This document shows positions 4,985 through 55,405 of a stretch of 64,000 nt of DNA, one piece after another. Positions within the stretch are counted from its first letter, which is position 1. The number at the start of each line of letters is the position of its first letter. Origin of the DNA: Methanolinea mesophila (GTDB lineage: Archaea; Halobacteriota; Methanomicrobia; Methanomicrobiales; Methanospirillaceae). The stretch covers positions 248,001 to 312,000 of the forward strand of contig NZ_JAGGKR010000001.1 of the NCBI RefSeq assembly GCF_017873855.1. The letters are read 5' to 3'. Below the pieces are notes generated by a model. It was given only the letters and a program-made list of their open reading frames with translations, was not told the DNA's origin and made no database searches. The position numbers were made by a program, and so were the translations under genes.

Positions 4985-5194
4985 AGACATAGGAGCGACG
5001 AGCGGTCTGCCCGGGAGCAGTCCGTGAGGAGCGGGAAAGAGCAGGCGATGCGACGCGAATACATGAGCGAGCATGGCCGTCGTCGTGTCATGGATGAACC
5101 AGGAGAGGCAGCCCCACGTTGTGAGTGCAGGGAGATCGGGAGCACCGGACGTCAGGAGGAGCGGACCGGCGACCGGAGCGAACATGGTGGGGCG
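4985..5194. repeat. Dispersed ~200-bp repeat, copy 2
   Basis: The block runs from gcgacgagcggtctgcc to the bases just beyond the kinase stop at 5195. It is highly similar to copy 3 (7710-7911) and copy 1 (1171-1432). It fills most of the gap between two kinase genes. The remainder (4849-4984) contains nothing recognisable. Its position directly downstream of a kinase 3' end matches copies 1 and 4. Confidence 0.75.
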
Positions 5195-7653
5195 TTACTT
5201 TCCGGTCCTGTCCGGTATGGTAAAGAAGAACGTGCTGCCCATCCCGGGCTCCGATTCGACCCGGATCCGGCCGCCGTGCCGCTCGACGATCCGCTTGCAG
5301 ATGGCGAGCCCGATCCCCGTCCCCTGGTAGTCGCCCCTCGACTGCAGCCGCTGGAAGAGCTCGAAGATTTTTTCATGGTAATGCGGATCGATGCCGATCC
5401 CGTTGTCCCGGACCGAGAATTCCCATTCGTTTCCAATTTCACTGCACCGACAGAGACAACCGGCTCTTTGTTGTCATGGAACTTTATCGCATTCGAGAGC
5501 AGGTTCTGGAACACGAGCGTCACCTGCGAACGGTCTACGTAGACCGTGGGAAGGACGCCCACCTCGATTTTTGCCTTATTCTCCTTTATCGCCATGGAAA
5601 GACTTTTCCGTGTTTCTTCCAACACGATATTCATGTCGGTCGGTTCGAACGGTTTCCCCCGGGACGTGATCCTTGAATACTCGAGGAGGTCGTTCACCAG
5701 GGCGTCCATCTTCCTCCCGCCCTCCACGATGTAATCGATGAATTCATCGGCATCCGCATCGAGCCGGCCCTTGTAGTTCTTCTCCAGGAGCTGGGAGAAG
5801 CTGGTCACCATCCGGAGCGGTTCCCGGAGGTCGTGGGACGCGACGTAGGCGAACCGTTCCAGGTCCTCGTTGCTCTGTTTAAGGTTCTCGGCGTAGTTTT
5901 TTAGGCTTTCTTCAGCGTTCTTTCTCTCAGTGATATCCTGGCCCTGGGCGACGGTGGAGAGCACCGTCGTCCCGTCAGGTGAAAAAAGAGTCGCCGAGTT
6001 CCAGAGAACCGTGCGGATCGCTCCATCGGCATCGAGGATCGGGATCTCGACCACCTCCATTCGTTCCCCTGAAGAGGTCCTCCGGACCGCTTCCATTGCG
6101 GCATCGCGGAACTGGTCCGGGAACAGGACCGCAAGGTCTTTTCCGATCATGGATTCGGCCGGTTTTCCTGTCAGGAGCTCGAATGCATGGTTGAACCGGG
6201 TGATACGGTATCCGGGGTCCCAGACGATGATCGGGGCGTTGGCGTAACCGATCAGGTTCTCAAGGTACTGACTCGTCTCGCGCTCGGCGTGCTCGGCTTT
6301 CATGAGCTCTTCATAATTCTGTCTCAATTCTTCCTGGGTAGAGACGAGCTCTTCGTTCAGCTCGTTCAATTCTTCAAATTTCACTTTAAGGGCCTCTTCG
6401 GCACTTTTCCTGTCCGTGATGTCCCGGATGATACAGGTCCTCGCCCAGGTGGACCCGGCCGGATGCCCGAACACCGACATGTCGACCGGGAACTCGTTTC
6501 CATCCTTTCGCAGGGCAATCGTCTCGATGTGGTCACTGACCGGCAGTCCCTCGTTCCCCGTTGCCTCAGTGGAACACACTGCCCGGATTGCGGAGAGGAA
6601 TCCGACTCCGGGAGCCATCAGGGCAATGGGGGTACCGACTGCCTCCTCCTGCGGATATCCGAACATCCGCTCGGCGGCCGGGTTCCAGACAAGCACCCGG
6701 TCGGCAGGGTCGAGGACCACGATCGCGCTGGTCGAGGCCTCCACGAGTGCCCGGTATCCGACCTCGGCTTCCCCGAAGAACTGAGCCAGCATCTCTTCGA
6801 CGGGAACACCCTGCGCCGATGCGGTCCTTCTCACTCCGAGGTAGGCGACCAGAGCATAGCACGCCCCGACATATTCGGCGGTCCTCCCGAACCAGCCGAC
6901 CAGCCCCCCGACCACCATCTCCTGGGCGAATGCGAACAGGCCGATTGAAAGGAGGCCGAAGGAGATTGCCATCCAGAAGAAGAAATCCTCCTTCTTCCTG
7001 GTGTTCTCCAGATAGAACATTACCGCCGAGGCCGCGAGCAAAACGATCGCGCTGATGAGAATGCCCTGGCGCAGCAGGGTCGGGCCGATGTCCTGGGTAA
7101 AGAACCGGGGGACGAGTCCCGCCAGGGTCGTGCCGGTGAAGAGAAGTATAAAAAGGCCCACTCCTGTATACAACAGCCCTGCGGTCCGGGTCCTTTTCGG
7201 GTCCGACAACCAGGCGGGATGATAGGTATTCGCCAGTGCGGCCGAGAATGCAAAAACTGCACCTACAAAAAATGCGGTGTTATAGACGGTGACGTTCAGG
7301 TTCGCCCCGTCCGGGAGTGATCGCACGAGCGCCGCGAGGATGCTGCCCATCCCCATGGCAAGCATCCCCCCGCCTATCAGCAGCACCGCGGGCCGCCCAT
7401 ACAAAGAATAGGTCCGGAAGGAGAGATACGCGATGAAAAGCGGGATAATTCCGACGAATATGGTGTTCGTGATCAGCAGCAGATAGGGGGGTTCGAATAC
7501 CGTCTGGATACCAGAAAGCACGAGAATTTCAATGATAATGAAAAAAATCGGGATAAGTGCGAGACTCGCGAGCTTCCATCGTTCCTGATGTTGCGGGATT
7601 GGCATAGAAATCAAAAAAAAATGTTGGTATTGACTATGATGTCCGCTATGCAC
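5152..7653 (-). CDS. Membrane PAS histidine kinase with a frameshift in the ATPase domain
   Basis: The likely start is the ATG at 7605 (MPIPQHQER). Residues after it form about seven or eight hydrophobic helices (to about residue 270), then two PAS domains, a coiled coil, HisKA with S-H-D-L-R-E-P-L-R, and the start of a HATPase domain. Around 5428-5440 the frame is lost. The minus-strand +1/-2 frame then continues [15 protein letters not shown] and [10 protein letters not shown], and stops at 5195. The open frame to 5152 encodes a nonsense Ser/Gly/Arg-rich tail instead. As written, the kinase would lack its ATP site. It is either a recent pseudogene, a phase-variable gene or a sequencing error. 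The membrane part probably senses or anchors. Confidence 0.8.
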
Positions 7654-7709: not shown

Positions 7710-7911
7710 GGCCACAGCGGCGAACGGTCTGCTCGGAAGCAGTCCGTGAGGAGCGGGAACGGGCAGGCGATGCGAAGCGAATAAATGAGCGAGCATGGCC
7801 GTAATGGGGGTGAACCAGGAGAAGCAGCCCCATGTTGCGAGTGCGGGGGAGAAGGAGCACCGGACGTTAGGTGGAGCGGCCCTGCGACCGGAGCGAACAT
7901 GGTGGGGCGTC
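7710..7911. repeat. Dispersed ~200-bp repeat, copy 3
   Basis: This copy lies upstream of the large kinase gene and carries the shared core gcgaataaatgagcgagc. It is close to copy 2 along its whole length, but small indels shift any reading frame. Unlike the other copies it has no recognisable kinase tail beside it; a short unrelated stretch follows. Confidence 0.7.
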
Positions 7912-8017
7912 TGGATTAGACCGCCCGCGTCGAAGTCACACTCAACTACATTTTTCAAAATAGGGACAAAAATAATGATATTCGTGTCAGGGATTCGTGC
8001 ACCTAAAAAAAGGGTAT

Positions 8018-8111
8018 TCCCCTTGTGGGGGGCACTGTCCGGCCCTTATGCGGGATTACGGACGTGCGGAAGTTTCTCCTCACCCGGGAATGACGGTCAT
8101 GATAGTCTGCC
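8018..8111 (+). repeat. Duplicate of the antiporter 3' end, in permuted order
   Basis: The segment gtgcggaagtttctcctc and the following ~35 bp repeat the last codons, stop and downstream bases of the Kef-type antiporter (55285-55330). The ~60 bp before it (gcccttatgcgggatta and surrounding bases) resemble the stretch that lies after the antiporter, near 55356-55405. The two blocks are thus in opposite order at the two loci. No gene is present here; the rest of 7912-8144 shows nothing else recognisable. Confidence 0.75.
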
Positions 8112-8144: not shown

Positions 8145-8591
8145 TCAATCGGGAGCTCGTGCAGAATATTCACTCGTGACGGAATAAGTAAGGTTATATT
8201 TTTCATTAATAACCACTATCAATGCTGATCTTTCAAAATTGTAATATCTTATCTTGGTTTCTTTCGGCTTGAGATCTCCGATATCAGCTAAAAATCTGTT
8301 ATCGCTGATACAGTTTCGGAACGGGAAATCATTTTGGTTATTGCAATAAGAAAATTGTTCAATTTTCACATTTTTGGCGGTAAAATTACTATTATTGAAA
8401 ACAGTTACGGTAATGAGATATTTGTTTTCAGCATCGACATAATTTTTTACGTAAGTCCCATTATATTGAAAATCAGCCGTTACACAGATATCGGGATTAG
8501 GACCGCGATATGTGTGGGTGAGGCACCCTACAAAAAGTATGGATACACAGAGAATTGAGGTTAGTCCAGTTATTAGGACAATATTTTTCAT
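8145..8591 (-). CDS. Putative lipoprotein of unknown function
   Basis: The 148-residue protein starts with a lysine, a hydrophobic segment and the lipobox-like end L-F-V-G-C (Cys about residue 23), so it is probably exported and lipid-anchored. The mature part is rich in Asn, Tyr and Thr, and contains I-T-V-T-V-F-N-N and K-P-K-E-T-K-I-R-Y. That pattern is typical of a small beta-sandwich domain of the kind that follows conserved archaeal lipoprotein signals. It ends close to the permuted antiporter fragment. The gene is AT-rich compared with its neighbours. No family was recognised. Confidence 0.7.
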   Translation of the reverse strand: MKNIVLITGLTSILCVSILFVGCLTHTYRGPNPDICVTADFQYNGTYVKNYVDAENKYLITVTVFNNSNFTAKNVKIEQFSYCNNQNDFPFRNCISDNRFLADIGDLKPKETKIRYYNFERSALIVVINEKYNLTYSVTSEYSARAPD

Positions 8592-24589: not shown

Positions 24590-25248
24590 CCAAGCGCTAC
24601 CGGAAGTTTTGCGATGCGGAGTACGAGGCCTGCCGCCTCCTGAAAGACGAGGGGTGGCAGGCGTACCGGATCGCAGGAGGACTTTCTCCGCCCGACCTCG
24701 TGGCGATGGGTCCGGCAGGCTGGGTCGCGATCATGGTCCGCAGTTCGCGAAGTCCGGTCCCGGACGCACACGCGGCGGCCCTCAAATATCCCCGGGAAGT
24801 TGCGAGGATGCGGACCGTCGCGGGAACGGCGAAGCGGAACTTCCGGGTCGAGGTGTGGATACGGTCGCCGCCGGACGGGTGGAAACGCTACCGGGTCTTT
24901 CCCTTCGGGTTGATGCGGGTGTTCCCGGGAGAACTCTACAACACGCCTCCGGAACTGCTGGATCTGGCCGGAGAGGAGGGTCAGCCCGACCGGCTCATGC
25001 CCTGGGAAGAACTCTTCAGGTTGGACCACCTGGGGGAGGAGGACATTGTTCCGGACCGGGAGGAAGATGACCAGGTTGGAGATGCGGGCGACGGCTGTAC
25101 CCTGCGAAAAGACGCGAGGAATATAGAGGACGGCAGGGACCGGGAGGAACACGACCCTGTTGAAGGGCCTGCCCGTAACCCCACGGGCTGGCCCGGACCC
25201 TTGGCAACTGCGAACGCTGCCTGCGACCGGGTGACCAAGCATGCCTGA
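24586..25248 (+). CDS. Resolvase-like / PD-(D/E)xK nuclease-fold protein, degenerate active site
   Basis: The N-terminal 130 residues follow the archaeal resolvase-like nuclease pattern: a helix A-C-R-L-L-K-D-E-G-W, then Y-R-I-A-G-G-L-S-P-P-D-L-V-A (Asp37), then a strand W-V-A-I-M-V-R-S-S. In active members the strand carries E/Q-V-K; here it reads M-V-R, so catalytic ability is doubtful. The C-terminal 80 residues are acidic and disordered. The GTG start has a GGGGGTG ribosome site and overlaps the previous stop. It overlaps the primase-helicase start by 8 bp, suggesting a role in element replication or DNA binding. Confidence 0.6.
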   Translation: MTKRYRKFCDAEYEACRLLKDEGWQAYRIAGGLSPPDLVAMGPAGWVAIMVRSSRSPVPDAHAAALKYPREVARMRTVAGTAKRNFRVEVWIRSPPDGWKRYRVFPFGLMRVFPGELYNTPPELLDLAGEEGQPDRLMPWEELFRLDHLGEEDIVPDREEDDQVGDAGDGCTLRKDARNIEDGRDREEHDPVEGPARNPTGWPGPLATANAACDRVTKHA

Positions 25249-28200
25249 TGCCGTATCCCCTGTCGGTACGGCATCCATGCGGGACGAGGTCGAGCGGGCG
25301 GTCCGGGTCCTCTCCGTCCCGGGCGGGGTGGTGGAAGTCCGGGCCGTCGCGGAGAACGGCACCCACAGCGGGTACTTCGACGACCCCGTCCTGCTCGCCC
25401 GGTCTTCCGAGCTCCTGGACCTCGCCACGGTCCACGGGGTGTACGTCACCCTGAACGAGGTGGCACCGGCGCTGATCGCCCGGCGGGCGAACCGGGTGAA
25501 GATGCGGCTCGGCGCAAAGGACGCCACCACCTCGGACGGGGATATCCTCCGGCGGAGGTGGTTCCCCGTCGATATCGACCCGGTCCGGCCGAGCGGAGTC
25601 TCCGCGACGGACGAGGAACGGGACCTGGCCTTCCGGAAGGCGGATGAACTCGCCGCGTGGCTCGCGGAACAGGGGGTTCCCGAACCGGTCTGCGGGGATT
25701 CGGGGAACGGTGCGCACCTCCTTTACCGGATCGACCTCCCGAACGACGAAGAGAGCAAACAGCTGGTCCAACGGTGTCTCGCGGTGCTCGCCCTCTTCTT
25801 CTCGGACGAGCGGTGCACGGTCGATACTGCGGTCTTCAACGCCGCCCGGATCTGGAAGCTCTACGGTACGGTCTCCAGGAAAGGGGACCACACCCGGGAA
25901 CGTCCCCACCGGAGGTCCCACCTCCTTTCGGTCCCCGACCCGGTCCCACTCGTCTCCCGGGAGACCCTGGAACGGCTTGCCGGGCTCCTTCCCACCACGG
26001 ACCCGGGACCGGAGAATGGAATGCAGGGACCGGCCGGGAATCCTCTTCCGGATCGTCGGGCATCCCCGGGCCTCGACCGGAGTGCCAGCCCGAACCACTG
26101 GAACTCCAGGGGACTCGCGGAACCTTCCGGTCAGAGTCGGGGAAAATCCCCGGGCCTCACCGGACCCTCCGGCCTCTCTCCCGGGACCTTTCCGGCCCGT
26201 AAAGGAACGGTCCCCCCGAATGCGTTTTCGCGTGCATTTCCGACCGCAACCGCGAGCGTACAGGGCCGGGACCGGACGAAGGTCTACGAGGACGGGAACG
26301 TCCCCATCGAACTCCGGGGATGGCTCCGGGAGCACGGGATCGCCGTCCGGTACGAAAAGCCCTGGCAGGGAGGGACCCTCTTCGTCCTTGAAGAGTGCCC
26401 GTTCTCCTCCGCCCACCGGGACGGGGCCTTCGCCATCCGGTTCCCGAGCGGAGCGGTCTACGCCGGGTGCAAGCACGCGAGCTGCGGGGGAGGAACACAA
26501 CGGTGGCAGGAACTGCGGCGGATGTACGACACCGAGTACGCCGAGCGGGAACGGGAAGGGGAATCGGCTGCGGTTCCCGGGACGGGTCCGGGGGTGACCG
26601 GGGACCCGATGACCACTTCCGCTTCGCGACTGTCCGGAACATCTCAGGGGGTGGCCGGGAATGCAGTGATAAATTCTGCTCCCGGACTGACGGGGACATC
26701 TCTGGGGAAGAACGGTAACCCGATGACAAACTCCGGTACTCCACGAGCGGGGACACCTCCGGGGAGGACTGGAAATGCAGTGACAAATTCCGCTACTGGA
26801 CTAGCGGGGACACCCCTGGGGAAGGCCGGTAACCCGATAACAAATTCCGCTTCGCCACTGTCCGGAGCGAACTCTGGTACGGAATCCGATCCCGAAAACG
26901 GATCGGTTCGCATGGACAGGAGCGCCACGTCTCCATCCCGGCAAGAACCAGGATTGCCTCCGAACCTTAATGACCCACCCGGAGCAGCCAGCGACAACCC
27001 GCTCCGCGACCGGGCGAGGGAGATTCTTTCGTCCGGCGATCCCCGGAAGTTCATCCTGGACACCTTTGCGAAGTGCCACGTGGGAGACGAGGTCGTAGCG
27101 GCGTGCTACCTCGCGAGCATCCTCTCCACGACGGTCGCGAACTCCCGGGGCCTGCACGTCTGCCCCACGGGAGACTCGGGGAAAGGGAAGAGCGACTCGG
27201 CGAACGCATTCCTCCGTCTCCTCCCCGCCGAGGCGAAGATGCAGGGCTCGATCACCTCGAAGGCCCTCTTCTACCACGGGGTCCCGCCCGGCTCCGCGAT
27301 CATCTTCGACGACTTCTCCATGAGCGAGGACCTCCGGGAAGTGCTGAAGAACGCGACCTCGAAGTTCCAGCACGGCCTTTCCCACTACACCCTGAACGCG
27401 AACCGCCAGCCGGTGGTCCTCGAGCTCCCGCCCCGGTGCGTGTGGTGGGTCCTCTCGGTGGACAACCCCGGCGACGACCAGGTGCTGAACCGGATGATGA
27501 ACCCCTGGATCGACGACTCCGAGCAGCAGGACATGCGGGTCCGGGACCACATCTTCGCCCGGGCCTGCCGATCGGGCGGAGCGCCAGAGGAAGACGAGGA
27601 CGTGGCCGTCTGCCGGGAGATCTTCTCCCTCGTCCGGGAACAACTCTACACCGTCCGCATCCCGTTCGCGAAACGAATCCGGATGGACAGCATCCGGAAC
27701 CGGAGGAACCCGATCATGTTCCTCGACATCGTCCGGTCGTTCGCGGCGCTGCGGTTCATGCAGAGGGGGAGCCGGACCCTTCCGGACGGGACGACCGAGA
27801 TCGACGCCGCGGAGGAGGACTTCCGCGACGCCGCCGGGCTCTTCACCGCACTGGACTCCACCGACGGAGGCCAGACCTCGAAACTGCTCAAGAACGAGAA
27901 GCTGCTGCTCGACTCGGTACTCGCAATGAAGACCGGGGAGTTCACCCTCAAGGACGCCCAGGCCTGGATGGGACTCCCGTACGTCGCGGTCCGGCGCATC
28001 CTTCACGGGCGGCTGGAACGGGACCGGGACACCGGGGGGCTCCTCGCGAAGTGTCCCGCACTCGGCGTCATCGAAATGACGGTCAGCGAAGGGACCATCG
28101 CGGCGGTCACCCGGAAGAGGGAGAACCACTATACCTTCGACTACGAACGCTACCGGAGCTGGACCCGGGGCAACGGGGTGTGGCTCTCTGAAGGGGACCC

Positions 28201-28984
28201 TGACCATAAGAATCGCGACGGACCTGATCCCAATGATCCCATAAAAAAACGCGATGGGATCACAAATGGGATCAGATCGGATTTCCTGGAAAACGGTCAG
28301 ATAGAAAATCCGGATGATATTAAAGAGAATACTAAGAATAATTGTACATTAAGATCCCATAATTCCAAAAGCGCAGCATCTCCTCCGGACCCCGGAAATT
28401 CCCACCAGGGGGGCGAGGGGTCGGAGGTATGCTCCCGCGATCCGGGATCATGGGATCACGAAAATGAAAATATTCCGGAAAATGAACGAAATGGGAAAGA
28501 AGATGAGGAACGCGAGAATCTCGTGATCCCAGACCTGATCCCATCCGGTCCTCCGATGGGATCATGGGATCATCTCAGGGAACAGGACTACATTGCACTT
28601 CCCTACGATTCCGACGAACCCTGCCACCTGTGTGGGAGTGCTCCCACGTCTTCAGTGAAGATCCGGCAACTGACCGATCCTCCGGACGGGGAAGAGAAGT
28701 ACCTGTGTTTCGTATGCCTGAAACGGGTGCGGGAACGAGAGAGAACTGCGAAGCGGGACAACTTCAATACGAAGTCCGGACCGGCACAAGTCAAAGGAAT
28801 TGCACCTCTCCCGGGCCTCCTGAACCCCGGCGATTTCACCCGGGCGAAGTGCTCCCAGGGGAAATGCGCAATCTGCGGGGGAAATGATGCGGTGTTCCGG
28901 AGTGCATCGAAGGCGATGTCCTGCTGCGAGAAGTGTTACGGGCGGCTGGTCCGGGAGGGAAACCGGGCCGAGGGGGCGGGGTAA
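25241..28984 (+). CDS. Element primase-helicase (AEP-like primase fused to a P-loop ATPase)
   Basis: This 1247-residue replication protein has several modules. An AEP-type primase region has V-D-I-D-P (about 110-114), G-N-G-A-H-L-L-Y (about 155-161) and A-R-I-W-K-L-Y-G-T (about 204-212). A Cys/His zinc-binding module lies at about 385-416. Five 19-residue tandem repeats follow. The helicase-like ATPase has Walker A PTGDSGKGKS (about 641-651) and Walker B I-I-F-D-D-F (about 687-692). After a winged-helix-like region, two C-terminal zinc modules (C-H-L-C-G..C-F-V-C and C-A-I-C-G..C-C-E-K-C) close the protein. Such fusions start replication of plasmids and viruses. It overlaps the nuclease-like gene and is the core of the integrated element. 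Confidence 0.8.
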   Translation: MPDAVSPVGTASMRDEVERAVRVLSVPGGVVEVRAVAENGTHSGYFDDPVLLARSSELLDLATVHGVYVTLNEVAPALIARRANRVKMRLGAKDATTSDGDILRRRWFPVDIDPVRPSGVSATDEERDLAFRKADELAAWLAEQGVPEPVCGDSGNGAHLLYRIDLPNDEESKQLVQRCLAVLALFFSDERCTVDTAVFNAARIWKLYGTVSRKGDHTRERPHRRSHLLSVPDPVPLVSRETLERLAGLLPTTDPGPENGMQGPAGNPLPDRRASPGLDRSASPNHWNSRGLAEPSGQSRGKSPGLTGPSGLSPGTFPARKGTVPPNAFSRAFPTATASVQGRDRTKVYEDGNVPIELRGWLREHGIAVRYEKPWQGGTLFVLEECPFSSAHRDGAFAIRFPSGAVYAGCKHASCGGGTQRWQELRRMYDTEYAEREREGESAAVPGTGPGVTGDPMTTSASRLSGTSQGVAGNAVINSAPGLTGTSLGKNGNPMTNSGTPRAGTPPGRTGNAVTNSATGLAGTPLGKAGNPITNSASPLSGANSGTESDPENGSVRMDRSATSPSRQEPGLPPNLNDPPGAASDNPLRDRAREILSSGDPRKFILDTFAKCHVGDEVVAACYLASILSTTVANSRGLHVCPTGDSGKGKSDSANAFLRLLPAEAKMQGSITSKALFYHGVPPGSAIIFDDFSMSEDLREVLKNATSKFQHGLSHYTLNANRQPVVLELPPRCVWWVLSVDNPGDDQVLNRMMNPWIDDSEQQDMRVRDHIFARACRSGGAPEEDEDVAVCREIFSLVREQLYTVRIPFAKRIRMDSIRNRRNPIMFLDIVRSFAALRFMQRGSRTLPDGTTEIDAAEEDFRDAAGLFTALDSTDGGQTSKLLKNEKLLLDSVLAMKTGEFTLKDAQAWMGLPYVAVRRILHGRLERDRDTGGLLAKCPALGVIEMTVSEGTIAAVTRKRENHYTFDYERYRSWTRGNGVWLSEGDPDHKNRDGPDPNDPIKKRDGITNGIRSDFLENGQIENPDDIKENTKNNCTLRSHNSKSAASPPDPGNSHQGGEGSEVCSRDPGSWDHENENIPENERNGKEDEERENLVIPDLIPSGPPMGSWDHLREQDYIALPYDSDEPCHLCGSAPTSSVKIRQLTDPPDGEEKYLCFVCLKRVRERERTAKRDNFNTKSGPAQVKGIAPLPGLLNPGDFTRAKCSQGKCAICGGNDAVFRSASKAMSCCEKCYGRLVREGNRAEGAG
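26591..26875 (+). repeat. Five 57-bp in-frame tandem repeats inside the primase-helicase gene
   Basis: Five units encode 19 residues each, for example GVAGNAVINSAPGLTGTSL and GKNGNPMTNSGTPRAGTPP. Units 2 and 4 carry N-A-V-[IT]; units 1, 3 and 5 carry [DN]-P-[MI]-T. This alternation shows that the array grew as two-unit blocks. The repeats form a flexible linker between the zinc module and the ATPase. Their number may vary between strains by slippage. Confidence 0.85.
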
Positions 28985-31082: not shown

Positions 31083-31500
31083 TATCATCCACATACTGGA
31101 GATGATCGCCGCCGTCATCGCGACCATCATCGCCGTCTGGCAGAACCGGCAGAAGAACGACGCCATCCAGGCGAAGGAAGAAGCCGTCGACCTCATACAG
31201 TTCGCCCGGGCCACCCAGTGGGAGACCGAGGCGGATAAGCAGGACCTGATCTCCTTCTTCGACCCGGCGGACGACCGGGTGACCGAGGCCCCGGACACCA
31301 TCCCGGCCCGGTCCTGGAAGATGAACGACGAGACGAAGAAGTGGGTCGTCTGCGGGCACTCACCCGAGGACCAGGCTTCGCTGCTCACGCAAATCGCCGA
31401 GGCGGAACAGCAGCGGAAGGTGAGCTACCTCATCTCCGTGCCCGGCTGCTACTACGAGATCGAGTACGGGCTGCTGAAGGGAGGGGGGAAAGGGGGGTGA
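31066..31500 (+). CDS. Membrane-anchored protein; parent of the dispersed tail repeats
   Basis: The 144-residue protein has one N-terminal helix (I-A-A-V-I-A-T-I-I-A-V-W, about 13-25), a charged helix, and a soluble C-terminal domain. That domain contains SPEDQASLL and ends VPGCYYEIEYGLLKGGGKGG. It starts inside the preceding small membrane gene (ATG 31066), so the pair is coupled. The last ~66-80 codons recur at eight other places in this window, always without the membrane helix. Parts of the domain are conserved in the decayed copies. The function is unknown. It probably forms a membrane complex with the preceding protein. Confidence 0.75.
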   Translation: MHMGPDIIHILEMIAAVIATIIAVWQNRQKNDAIQAKEEAVDLIQFARATQWETEADKQDLISFFDPADDRVTEAPDTIPARSWKMNDETKKWVVCGHSPEDQASLLTQIAEAEQQRKVSYLISVPGCYYEIEYGLLKGGGKGG

Positions 31501-31507
31501 GTGAATT

Positions 31508-31535
31508 ATTCTTTTTTCATTTTTTTATTTCTCGT
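31508..31535 (+). terminator. T-rich putative terminator after the cassette
   Basis: Poly-T runs (ttcttttttcattttttt) follow the stop at 31500 on the coding strand. Archaeal RNA polymerase commonly stops at such runs. Similar T-runs follow several of the tail copies. Confidence 0.5.
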
Positions 31536-34618: not shown

Positions 34619-34880
34619 TGCATCGATACCTCAAACGTTTTTTCGGACGACCGGGTGACCGGGGCCCCGGGACACCGTCCCGTCCCGGTTTCCTGGAAGA
34701 TTTTTCGACGAGACGAAGAAGTGGGTCATCTGTGGGCACTCTCCCGAGGACCTGGTCTCGCTGCTCACGCAGATCGCCGAGGCAGAACAACAGCGGGAGG
34801 TGAGTTACCTGATCTCGGTGCCCGGCTGCTCCTACGAGATCGAGTACGGACTGCTGAAGGGAGGCGGGAAAGGGGGGTGA
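34619..34880 (+). pseudogene. Tail repeat, copy B
   Basis: This copy covers about the last 80 residues of the 31066 gene, from D-D-R-V-T-G-A-P to the end. A small indel near 34700-34710 shifts the frame. The terminal part reads V-S-Y-L-I-S-V-P-G-C-S-Y-E-I-E-Y-G-L and G-G-G-K-G-G and ends in a stop followed by T-runs. It is the longest partial copy. The rest of 34528-35035 shows no gene. Confidence 0.85.
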
Positions 34881-35035
34881 GAAAACTTTTTCATTTTTTT
34901 CGCCCTTTCCCTTTTTTCTGTTTTCTGTCCTAACCTCCTTTATCGGTTGCAGGTCCGTCTGCCGATCGGCCCGGAATAGATGGTTTGAATACCGGTAAAT
35001 AAATAATAGGACAACATTTTTTATTTGATTATAAA

Positions 35036-37788: not shown

Positions 37789-37982
37789 TCGGGTTCCACC
37801 ACCTTAAAATCCGAGCCAGAACGGAATCCATCCCCCCTTTATTATGGATCAGACCGGAACTGAATTGCGGGACTATTTTTTTTCGAAGGAATGCGGTAAT
37901 CCCTAAGCGAGTCATCCCGCCAAGGATCTCTCTGAGAGGACAAAGGGAAACAGGACCGGGATCACGGTCCTCGAAGAGGAAC

Positions 37983-38158
37983 GATAAGACGAAGAAGTGG
38001 GTCATCTGTGGACACATGCCCGAGGACCAGGCTTCACTCCTCACCAAAATCGCCGAGGCAGAACAACAGTGGAAGGTGAGCTCTATCATTTCGGTGCCCG
38101 GCTGCTCCGACGAGATTGAATACGACTGATGAGGGAGGAGGGGGGAAAGAGGAGTGAA
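37983..38158 (+). pseudogene. Tail repeat, copy D
   Basis: The frame reads K-T-K-K-W-V-I-C-G-H-M-P-E-D-Q-A-S-L-L and V-P-G-C-S-D-E-I-E-Y, matching the end of the 31066 gene, then breaks before the Gly/Lys end. It lies directly beside a histidine kinase tail on the opposite strand. Confidence 0.8.
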
Positions 38159-38185
38159 TGAATTCTCCAGGATCTCCTTCCAGGT

Positions 38186-39450: not shown

Positions 39451-40641
39451 TTATGTTTTTTTTCCGAAACGAATACATACAAATGAAATGAGGATTCCAA
39501 GAGACAAAATAATGATATTCGATCCCGCAACAGGGGTTGTAGTAGGGATTGGGGTGAAATTTTCCGTGGAAGTAACATTCTGATTATCATATGCCTGACC
39601 GTCAACTGTCGGCTCATTAGAGAATAGTACACCTGACCAGCAATCGTTCAAAAAATTATCATAGTAGGGATCCAAACCCCCAAACACAACGATACTATCA
39701 TTTATTACAACAACACCCTGGCCATATCGGGGAGAGAAACCTGACGAATTCGGGTCCTTGGTCCAGTTTATCCCATCGGAAGAAATCCATACGTCATTAT
39801 ACGCCAAACTGCCTGGCACTGATGCAACTCTTGTAGCTCTCATAGAATAACCATAACTCCCTCCTCCGATGACATACATCGAACCATTTGCAGAGATAAC
39901 GGGAACAAATTCTCTTCCAGGGAATGGGCTGTCGCTATTTTGCTGTATCCAATTTACGCCATCGACCGATGACCATACGTCGGATAACTCTCTCTCTGTC
40001 GTTGTCCCCCTCGTATCAGTTAAACGTGAATATCCTCCGATAACCCAGATCTGGTTATTAAAATCGATTGTACCTTCTCCATGACGAGGAAGAAAGTTTG
40101 CCGATTTCGTCTCGCGGGTCCAGTTGATACCATCGAGAGAGGACCATATGTCATTTAATGTATTGGTCTGTGAAGATGAGCCTCCGATTACCCATAAACG
40201 GTCATTAAATACCACAACTCCGTGAAAATATCGAGGGCTGAAACCAGCGTGGTTTGTGACACGTGTCCAGTTTTTTCCATCGGTCGACGAATACACATCA
40301 TTCATAGGGGTGTTATCTGAAATTCCCCCAATAATCCAGAGTCGGTTCTGAAATGTTGCAATCCCATGACCATATCGTGGTGTGAAAGCAGCATGATCGG
40401 TTACTAGGTTCCAGAATTCCCCATCTTCTGAAGACCATACATCGTTCATGCTCGATGTATTCGTGAGTCCACCCAATAGCCAAATCTTACCCTGGAAAGC
40501 GGTCATGCCCGAAAATGCACGCGGGGTAACATTCGTAATTGGAGCCTTTTCGACCCATATAATATTGTCCTGACTATCGGCAACGCATAATCCTATGGAT
40601 AATAAGAAAATCACTACCCCAATGAATTTTAGAGATTTCAT
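39451..40641 (-). CDS. Secreted kelch-repeat protein with a C-terminal anchor
   Basis: A signal peptide (about 1-21) is followed by six kelch motifs. Five of them carry N-D-[VI]-[WY]-x-S-x-D-G-x-x-W, and between them lie the glycine pairs I-G-G or G-G of a six-bladed beta-propeller. After a Thr/Pro-rich linker, a hydrophobic helix and the basic end F-G-K-K-T anchor the protein to the membrane. Such propellers bind proteins or sugars on the outside of the cell. The ATG overlaps the stop of the small gene upstream. The gene is AT-rich compared with neighbouring metabolic genes. Confidence 0.85.
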   Translation of the reverse strand: MKSLKFIGVVIFLLSIGLCVADSQDNIIWVEKAPITNVTPRAFSGMTAFQGKIWLLGGLTNTSSMNDVWSSEDGEFWNLVTDHAAFTPRYGHGIATFQNRLWIIGGISDNTPMNDVYSSTDGKNWTRVTNHAGFSPRYFHGVVVFNDRLWVIGGSSSQTNTLNDIWSSLDGINWTRETKSANFLPRHGEGTIDFNNQIWVIGGYSRLTDTRGTTTERELSDVWSSVDGVNWIQQNSDSPFPGREFVPVISANGSMYVIGGGSYGYSMRATRVASVPGSLAYNDVWISSDGINWTKDPNSSGFSPRYGQGVVVINDSIVVFGGLDPYYDNFLNDCWSGVLFSNEPTVDGQAYDNQNVTSTENFTPIPTTTPVAGSNIIILSLGILISFVCIRFGKKT

Positions 40642-40924: not shown

Positions 40925-41064
40925 CACCCGAAGGACCAGGCCTCGCTGCTCACCCAGATCGCCGAGGCGGAGGAGCAGCGGAGGGTGAAGCTACCTCATC
41001 TCTGTGCCCGGCTGCTATTACGAGATCGAGAACGGGCTCCGAAGGGAGGCGGGAAAGGGGGGTG
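40925..41064 (+). pseudogene. Tail repeat, copy E
   Basis: The bases match the end of the 31066 gene (gaggaccaggcctcgctgct-like start, then cggctgctattacgag and gggaaaggggggtga). One or two indels break the frame. A T-run follows. Confidence 0.8.
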
Positions 41065-41149
41065 AATATTTTTTTAAACCTTTTTTGGAATTCTTTTCAA
41101 AAAATGTGGAGTGACGGAAATAATCTCATCCATTACTGCGCGAAGCTCC

Positions 41150-53160: not shown

Positions 53161-53260
53161 TGCCGCGGAAAGTGCGCCGCATCGTTTCGGTGCCCGGCGG
53201 TCACAACGAAATCGAGGTCGGGCTGCTGACGGGTGGCGGGAAGGGGAGCGAATTCCAACC
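53161..53260 (+). pseudogene. Tail repeat, copy F
   Basis: The bases read I-V-S-V-P-G-G-H-N-E-I-E-V-G-L-L and then a G-G-K-G-run, matching the end of the 31066 gene. The earlier S-P-E-D-Q part is absent. It lies between the methyltransferase and the antiporter. Confidence 0.7.
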
Positions 53261-53349: not shown

Positions 53350-55314
53350 ATGGACCCGGTGTTCCTCCTGGAGATCATGTTCATCGTGATCCTCGCCCTC
53401 ATCGTCCTCTTCATCTGCAATTTCCTGAAGATCCCGTCGATCATCGGGTACATACTTTCAGGTATTCTCGCCGGCCCGTTCGTGCTGAGCCTGGTGGGGA
53501 GCCGGGACATCATCGAGCTGTTCGCGGAGATCGGGATCATCTTCCTCCTCTTCACGATCGGGATACAGTTCTCGTTAAAGACGTTCTTCGAGTCAAAGAA
53601 ACTGGTCGTGATCGGCGGGGCGTTGCAGCTGGTCCTGACCACGGGCATCGTCACGGCCGCCACCCTGTTCGCGGGTGCTCCCCTCCCCCAGGCGCTCTTC
53701 CTCGGGTTCCTCGTATCGTTGAGCAGCACCGCGATCGTGATGAAAATCCTCCAGGAACGGGGAGAACTCGAGAGCATCCAGGGAAAGACCGCACTCTCGA
53801 TCCTCATCTTCCAGGACCTCATGCTCATCCCCCTGATGTTCATCACTCCCATCCTCGCCGGGACCGGGTCCTTCAGTCCTGCATCGATCGCGCTCCTGGT
53901 CGTGACGGGGATCGTCATCCTCGTGATAGTGCTGATCACGAGCAGGTACGTCATCCCCCGCCTCCTCTATTACTCGGCGAAGGTGAGGAGCCAGGAACTC
54001 TTCCTGCTCTCCGTCATCGCCATCTGTTTTTCCGTCGCCTGGATCATCAGCCAGACGGGGGTGTCGCTTGCGCTCGGTGCGTTCATCGCCGGGCTGATCC
54101 TGTCCGAGTCCGAGTTCAGCGTGGCTGCTTTAAGCCACATCATGCCGTTCCGGGACCTGTTCGCCGGCTTCTTTTTTATCTCGATCGGCATGCTGCTCGA
54201 CGTCGGCGTCTTCTTTTCCATGCCCGTGCTCATCATCGCCCTGGCGATCGGGGTCATCGCCCTCAAGTTCTGCACCGGGGCCATGGCGACCCTCTTTCTC
54301 GGCCTTCCCGCGAGGACGGGGATTCTCACCGGGTTCGCGCTCTGCCAGATCGGTGAATTTTCGTTCATCCTGGCCAGCACCGGCGAAGGGCTGGGGCTGA
54401 TATCCGGGACCGTCTACCAGGTAATCATCGACATCACCCTGATCACCATGGTCGCGACTCCCTTTTTCATCGCCGGGTCGCACCGTATCGCGGCGAGGAT
54501 CTCGGGTGGGATGGAGCAGCTCGTCGGGCCGTCCTGCGAGTTCGACCTCACCAGGGCTCCGGCCATGACAGGACACCTCATCATAGTCGGATACGGGTTC
54601 AACGGCATGAATGTCGCCCGTGCGGCGAAGTATGCCGGGATCCCCTACCGGATCATCGAACTGAACCCCGACACCGTCAGGGAATACTGCGAAGCCGGCG
54701 AGCCGATCTTTTACGGCGATGCCACCCAGCAGGCGGTGCTCGAACTCGCAGGTATCAGGGACGCCCGCCACCTCGTGGTGGTCATCGCGGACCGTATCGC
54801 CACCGAGCAGATCGTCCAGGGCGCCCGGGCGCTGAGTGCCCGGGTCCACATCCTGGTCAGGACACGGTTTATGAACGAGGTCCCCGTCCTGCAGAACCTC
54901 GGTGCCGACGAGGTGATCCCCGAGGAGTTCGAGACCTCCATCGAGATATTCACCCGGGTGCTGCGTAATTTCAACATCCCGGCACCGGAAGTGAACCATC
55001 TCGTCGGGGAAGTCAGGACGGAGAACTACGAGATGCTCAGGCAACCTCTCCCCTCGCCGGTGCCCCCGCTCCCGAAACAGTTGCCCGAACTGGAAGTCGG
55101 GTCTTTCAGGGTGGGTCCGGAGGATTCTTTCACCGGGAAGAACCTGGCCGAGATCTCATGGCGGAAGGAGAAGGGGATAAGCGTCATCGCCATCCAGCGG
55201 GGAGGGCAGGCACTCCTGAATCCCGGCCCCGATACCTCCCTCGAGCGCGATGACCTGGTGTATTTCATCGGCAGCACCGACAACGTGCGGAAGTTTCTCC
55301 TCGCCCGGGAATGA
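53350..55314 (+). CDS. Kef-type (CPA2) cation/proton antiporter with TrkA domains
   Basis: The first ~390 residues have 12 or so hydrophobic segments with G-Y-I-L-S-G-I-L-A-G-P and S-S-T-A-I-V-M-K, typical of monovalent cation:proton antiporters (CPA2). A TrkA-N (RCK) domain follows with I-V-G-Y-G-F-N-G-M-N (NAD-binding), then a TrkA-C domain at the end. It likely exports potassium or sodium under nucleotide control. The end (from V-R-K-F-L-L-A-R-E) and the stop are repeated at 8018-8111. It complements the Kdp uptake system in the same window. Confidence 0.9.
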   Translation: MDPVFLLEIMFIVILALIVLFICNFLKIPSIIGYILSGILAGPFVLSLVGSRDIIELFAEIGIIFLLFTIGIQFSLKTFFESKKLVVIGGALQLVLTTGIVTAATLFAGAPLPQALFLGFLVSLSSTAIVMKILQERGELESIQGKTALSILIFQDLMLIPLMFITPILAGTGSFSPASIALLVVTGIVILVIVLITSRYVIPRLLYYSAKVRSQELFLLSVIAICFSVAWIISQTGVSLALGAFIAGLILSESEFSVAALSHIMPFRDLFAGFFFISIGMLLDVGVFFSMPVLIIALAIGVIALKFCTGAMATLFLGLPARTGILTGFALCQIGEFSFILASTGEGLGLISGTVYQVIIDITLITMVATPFFIAGSHRIAARISGGMEQLVGPSCEFDLTRAPAMTGHLIIVGYGFNGMNVARAAKYAGIPYRIIELNPDTVREYCEAGEPIFYGDATQQAVLELAGIRDARHLVVVIADRIATEQIVQGARALSARVHILVRTRFMNEVPVLQNLGADEVIPEEFETSIEIFTRVLRNFNIPAPEVNHLVGEVRTENYEMLRQPLPSPVPPLPKQLPELEVGSFRVGPEDSFTGKNLAEISWRKEKGISVIAIQRGGQALLNPGPDTSLERDDLVYFIGSTDNVRKFLLARE

Positions 55315-55405
55315 CGGTCATGATAGTCTGCCCTCGACCGGGTGCATAACAAAAGTTATCCCCGTGTGTGGGCAAAGCCCGGCTCTTATACGGGGGTATG
55401 CCTCA
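55285..55405 (+). repeat. Antiporter 3' end and flanking block, source of the 8018 duplicate
   Basis: The two parts (antiporter end, then the stretch around gcccggctcttatacggg) recur at 8018-8111 in the reverse order. Each part is about 50-60 bp long. Confidence 0.7.

Follow-up and report, generated by a model that had tools for sequence, protein, structure and literature searches.

A 118-bp stretch at 55283-55400 of the window analysed here (64,000 nucleotides, C1:248001-312000, from the 2.66-Mb, two-contig genome of a methane-producing archaeon) recurs at 8 kb with its two adjacent pieces in swapped order. At 55 kb the 3' end of an antiporter gene (T, 55283-55332) is followed, after 9 bp, by a second block (B, 55342-55400), whereas at 8 kb B is placed first (7997-8060) and T second (8062-8111), all four on the plus strand. 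The alignment thus bears out the permuted order, T-B against B-T, that had been proposed from the letters of this DNA, and it is a true swap. The interval originally put forward, 8018-8111, takes in the whole of T but is too short on its left, where B begins at 7997. The arrangement is most likely a small scar of ectopic copying or DNA repair and not a new kind of element.

The gene from which T derives encodes a Na+/H+ exchanger (53350-55314, plus strand) with the domains PF00999, PF02254 (TrkA_N) and PF02080 (TrkA_C). T consists of the last ~31 nt of this open reading frame, including the stop codon, plus the 18 nt beyond it, and 49 of its 50 positions agree between 55283-55332 and 8062-8111, the two copies lying 47 kb apart in direct orientation. 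The expected number of such matches by chance is 0, and the edges of the match are sharp. T is present in two copies in the whole 2.66-Mb genome, with no third. As in a templated insertion, a short sequence has been copied almost without change from a distant locus, and the donor has stayed intact. Since T continues the antiporter gene, of which no second copy was found in the genome at the cutoff used, the copying ran from 55 kb to 8 kb. The nearest antiporters in other genomes show 66-72% identity, the highest (72%) being in genome G007, and the coding of NVRKF at the C-terminal end is common to the G007 antiporter and the 55-kb gene; the closest named relative comes from a Methanomicrobiales archaeon, which makes that order the probable one for the present genome. 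The DNA downstream of these relatives gave no convincing match to T or B, and a close relative carrying the 8-kb locus did not come to light.

The background rate of short copies was measured on a 384-kb sample of the genome. T was the only isolated near-identical short copy found there outside repeat families and longer duplications. The other short pairs, of 34-42 bp, were members of a large repeat family; among the further matches one belonged to the dispersed ~200-bp intergenic repeat described below, and two adjoined longer repeats or overlapped in tandem. As T is the sole unassigned isolated copy in 384 kb, such events are not common in this genome.

The similarity of block B between the two sites, doubted when the permutation was proposed, is significant. 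Aligning 7997-8060 with 55342-55400 gave 43 identical letters among 59, plus five gap columns, with a fitted chance probability of about 2e-7 to 5e-7 against shuffles and real pieces of the window, and the score of the pair was not reached by any of 5049 other pieces of the window. When only the 55-kb block was used to build a model for searching the genome, the 8-kb block was the top non-self place (E = 0.0017); the runner-up (E = 0.07), read by eye, was coding-like and lacked T. Exact occurrences of the 16-base signature CCGGCYCTTATRCGGG are confined to the two B sites. A model built from both copies likewise found just the 8-kb and 55-kb places in the genome. A search of 231 other genomes of the order, with filters that can lose weak matches, turned up no B, and neither T nor B had copies in viral contigs. 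A search of the 8-kb and 55-kb loci against Rfam returned nothing above chance. With two copies in the genome and none found in the 231 genomes so filtered, B was rejected as a dispersed family or mobile element. Membership of a G+C-rich intergenic repeat family was also considered, and neither copy of B matches it convincingly. That family has the core GATGGTTCCGCCGCCCCCGAAGGGCGCCCCGGCGGCGGATC, often with a second motif like GGCGCCGCAGCGGCGGGGCGACAGCCCCGGGAGCGTC ~100-190 bp later, and is seen at C1:398150-398380 (L213:6150-6380) and about 50 other places, with 53 matches in one search.

At its 55-kb site B lies between the convergent antiporter and winged-helix genes, and is predicted to form a hairpin of 16 pairs (-24.2 kcal/mol, z -3.4). 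Eleven of these 16 pairs are possible in the 8-kb copy, which has, close to its left end, a run of seven A (T7 on the minus strand), and there are no compensatory changes between the two.

B and T meet almost seamlessly at 8 kb, which is what a permuted circle would give: B ends at 8060 and T starts at 8062, leaving 1-7 bp between them. Beyond the two outer ends no significant similarity was detected, extension to the left giving p = 0.25 and to the right p = 0.17. No T remnant is seen left of the 8-kb B, where an old T at the identity level of B would have been obvious, and no second B right of the 8-kb T. The search for further copies or a tandem form in the genome, suggested earlier, gave two places for T, two for B and no tandem anywhere. 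Within the interval 7911-7996, an A-rich match of 23 bases containing one gap (7962-7984 against 39500-39521, at 39.5 kb) was marginal and, once the number of pieces tried was allowed for, unconvincing.

Several other repeats were noticed. A dispersed ~200-bp intergenic repeat at 7716-7910 (plus strand) ends 86 bp left of B and is outside the permutation. Its copies (7716-7910, 4994-5195 and 1217-1427 in the window, C1:1814013-1814211 and C1:1810373-1810566 elsewhere) are 76-85% identical, have conserved ends CAGCGACGAGC...GAACATGGTGGGGCG and unrelated flanks, and some of them are located between genes for PAS histidine kinases; the repeat resembles a small non-autonomous element. Another segment of ~200 bp is found at six or more places in the window, at least at 732-938 (inverted), 31304-31517, 34706-34918, 37966-38173, 40925-41065 and 53175-53248, one copy preceding the antiporter gene by ~100 bp; a 215-bp copy at C1:1807894-1808108 is 96% identical. 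In addition, a 57-bp tandem repeat occupies 26579-26863 within the long open reading frame 25241-28984.

T and B look different in age. T differs at one of its 50 positions, B at 16 of 59 with gaps besides (Fisher p = 3e-4). This contrast cannot be put down to constraint on the coding sequence, because the non-coding part of T beyond the stop is identical at all 18 of its positions, and at the identity of B a run of 18 would have a probability of 0.73^18 = 0.0035. The equal age expected of two pieces moved in one circle is thus not what is observed, although selection or conversion could mask it. Two courses would account for it: B became common to both sites first and T arrived later, or the two moved jointly and T was afterwards preserved or reconverted.

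The explanation that we prefer, tentatively and at somewhat less than an even chance, is that two events took place, an older sharing of B and a recent short templated copying of T beside the resident block. The intergenic, hairpin-forming B would have become common to both sites long ago, the copies now agreeing at 73% of positions. At some later time, repair or replication at 8 kb may have copied 50 bp of the antiporter 3' end to the right of the resident B by short-patch templated synthesis, that is, template switching or microhomology-finished repair, with pairing between B and B' perhaps holding the 8-kb and 55-kb sites together. The outcome would be the order B-T, permuted with respect to T-B. 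The two homologies, their order and copy numbers, and the unequal divergence are observed directly; the number of events, the tether of B with B' and the route of repair are what we infer. Some observations tell against this account. The landing of T a few base pairs from the genome's single other B would be a coincidence unless the pairing of B had guided it. At the donor site B follows T, so extension from B alone would miss T, and copying would need either a second end or a switch of template. The G+C-rich hairpin of the 55-kb B is, moreover, only partly kept at 8 kb.

The adjacency of B and T would be obtained in one step had the T-spacer-B stretch 55283-55400 been copied as a small circle that opened within the 9-bp spacer and then integrated at 8 kb in the order B-T. 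A circular intermediate of this kind, which the original prediction also named, is possible, if unlikely. Both adjacent pieces are present at 8 kb, their order is swapped, and the end of B is contiguous with the start of T, all as such an insertion would leave them. The intermediate could have been DNA or reverse-transcribed RNA, after which B would have decayed while T was kept by selection or by conversion from the antiporter gene. For a circle of double-stranded DNA, 118 bp would be a very small size. The unequal divergence (T at 98% identity, B at 73% with indels; p = 3e-4) and the lack of further copies both argue against a circle. The other origin first suggested, a shortened tandem array in which T-B-T-B formed at 8 kb and was later cut down to B-T, would equally yield the observed order; it is disfavoured, and we consider it very improbable, as no trace of T is left of B and none of B right of T, the genome has no tandem form, and there is no second antiporter gene.

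It may also be asked whether the two B blocks are homologous at all. They could be convergent, G+C-rich terminator-like hairpins beside one of which T landed by chance, and in keeping with this both are intergenic, the 8-kb copy takes a different best fold, and BLAST does not see the pair. BLAST needs an 11-base seed, and it misses the pair because the two copies share no 11-base word. The chance probability of about 3e-7, the top non-self rank genome-wide (E = 0.0017) and the confinement of CCGGCYCTTATRCGGG to the two B sites make convergence improbable.

T and B sit just past the stop codon of a putative small lipoprotein gene on the minus strand (8145-8591; 148 aa, with the lipobox-like ILFVGCL), which raises a functional alternative, namely that the 8-kb T was kept because the 3' UTR of the lipoprotein transcript acts as an antisense RNA to the 3' end of the antiporter mRNA. 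The predicted duplex has 50 pairs and -112 kcal/mol, the single difference forming a G-U pair; among 100 control pieces the strongest duplex reaches -66 kcal/mol. Beyond T, on the same minus strand, a terminator-like stem and T-run at 8009-8024, recognised by a consensus match only, could serve the lipoprotein gene. However, such pairing comes with any near-identical copy, and retention of T by this function is regarded as quite unlikely. Were the pairing selected, it would explain why T has remained identical while B has drifted. The fuller proposition, that the permuted transporter-gene fragment forms a lipoprotein 3' UTR serving as a 50-nt trans antisense regulator of the transporter mRNA, is less probable still. 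If the 8-kb T is transcribed, it would illustrate that a stray gene fragment can turn into an antisense RNA. If the locus is instead a repair scar, as preferred here, it would represent clean, recent short ectopic copying in an archaeon, and the homologous block beside the landing site may reveal how the 8-kb and 55-kb sites came together.

Among known systems, circular permutation through an excised circle resembles the present case in the swapping of two adjacent segments, and differs from it in the unequal ages, the 118-bp size and the lack of further copies. In natural transformation of Acinetobacter, short pieces reportedly integrate without long homology by double illegitimate recombination; that system is bacterial and not archaeal, and here, unlike there, a homologous block adjoins the insertion. 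The Acinetobacter work is cited in PMC13344027. Templated insertions mediated by template switching and microhomology (FoSTeS-type) have been described for human rearrangements, with palindromes suggested as stimuli (PMC2583991). As in the present case, a short, direct-orientation copy has come from a distant site and the donor is unchanged.
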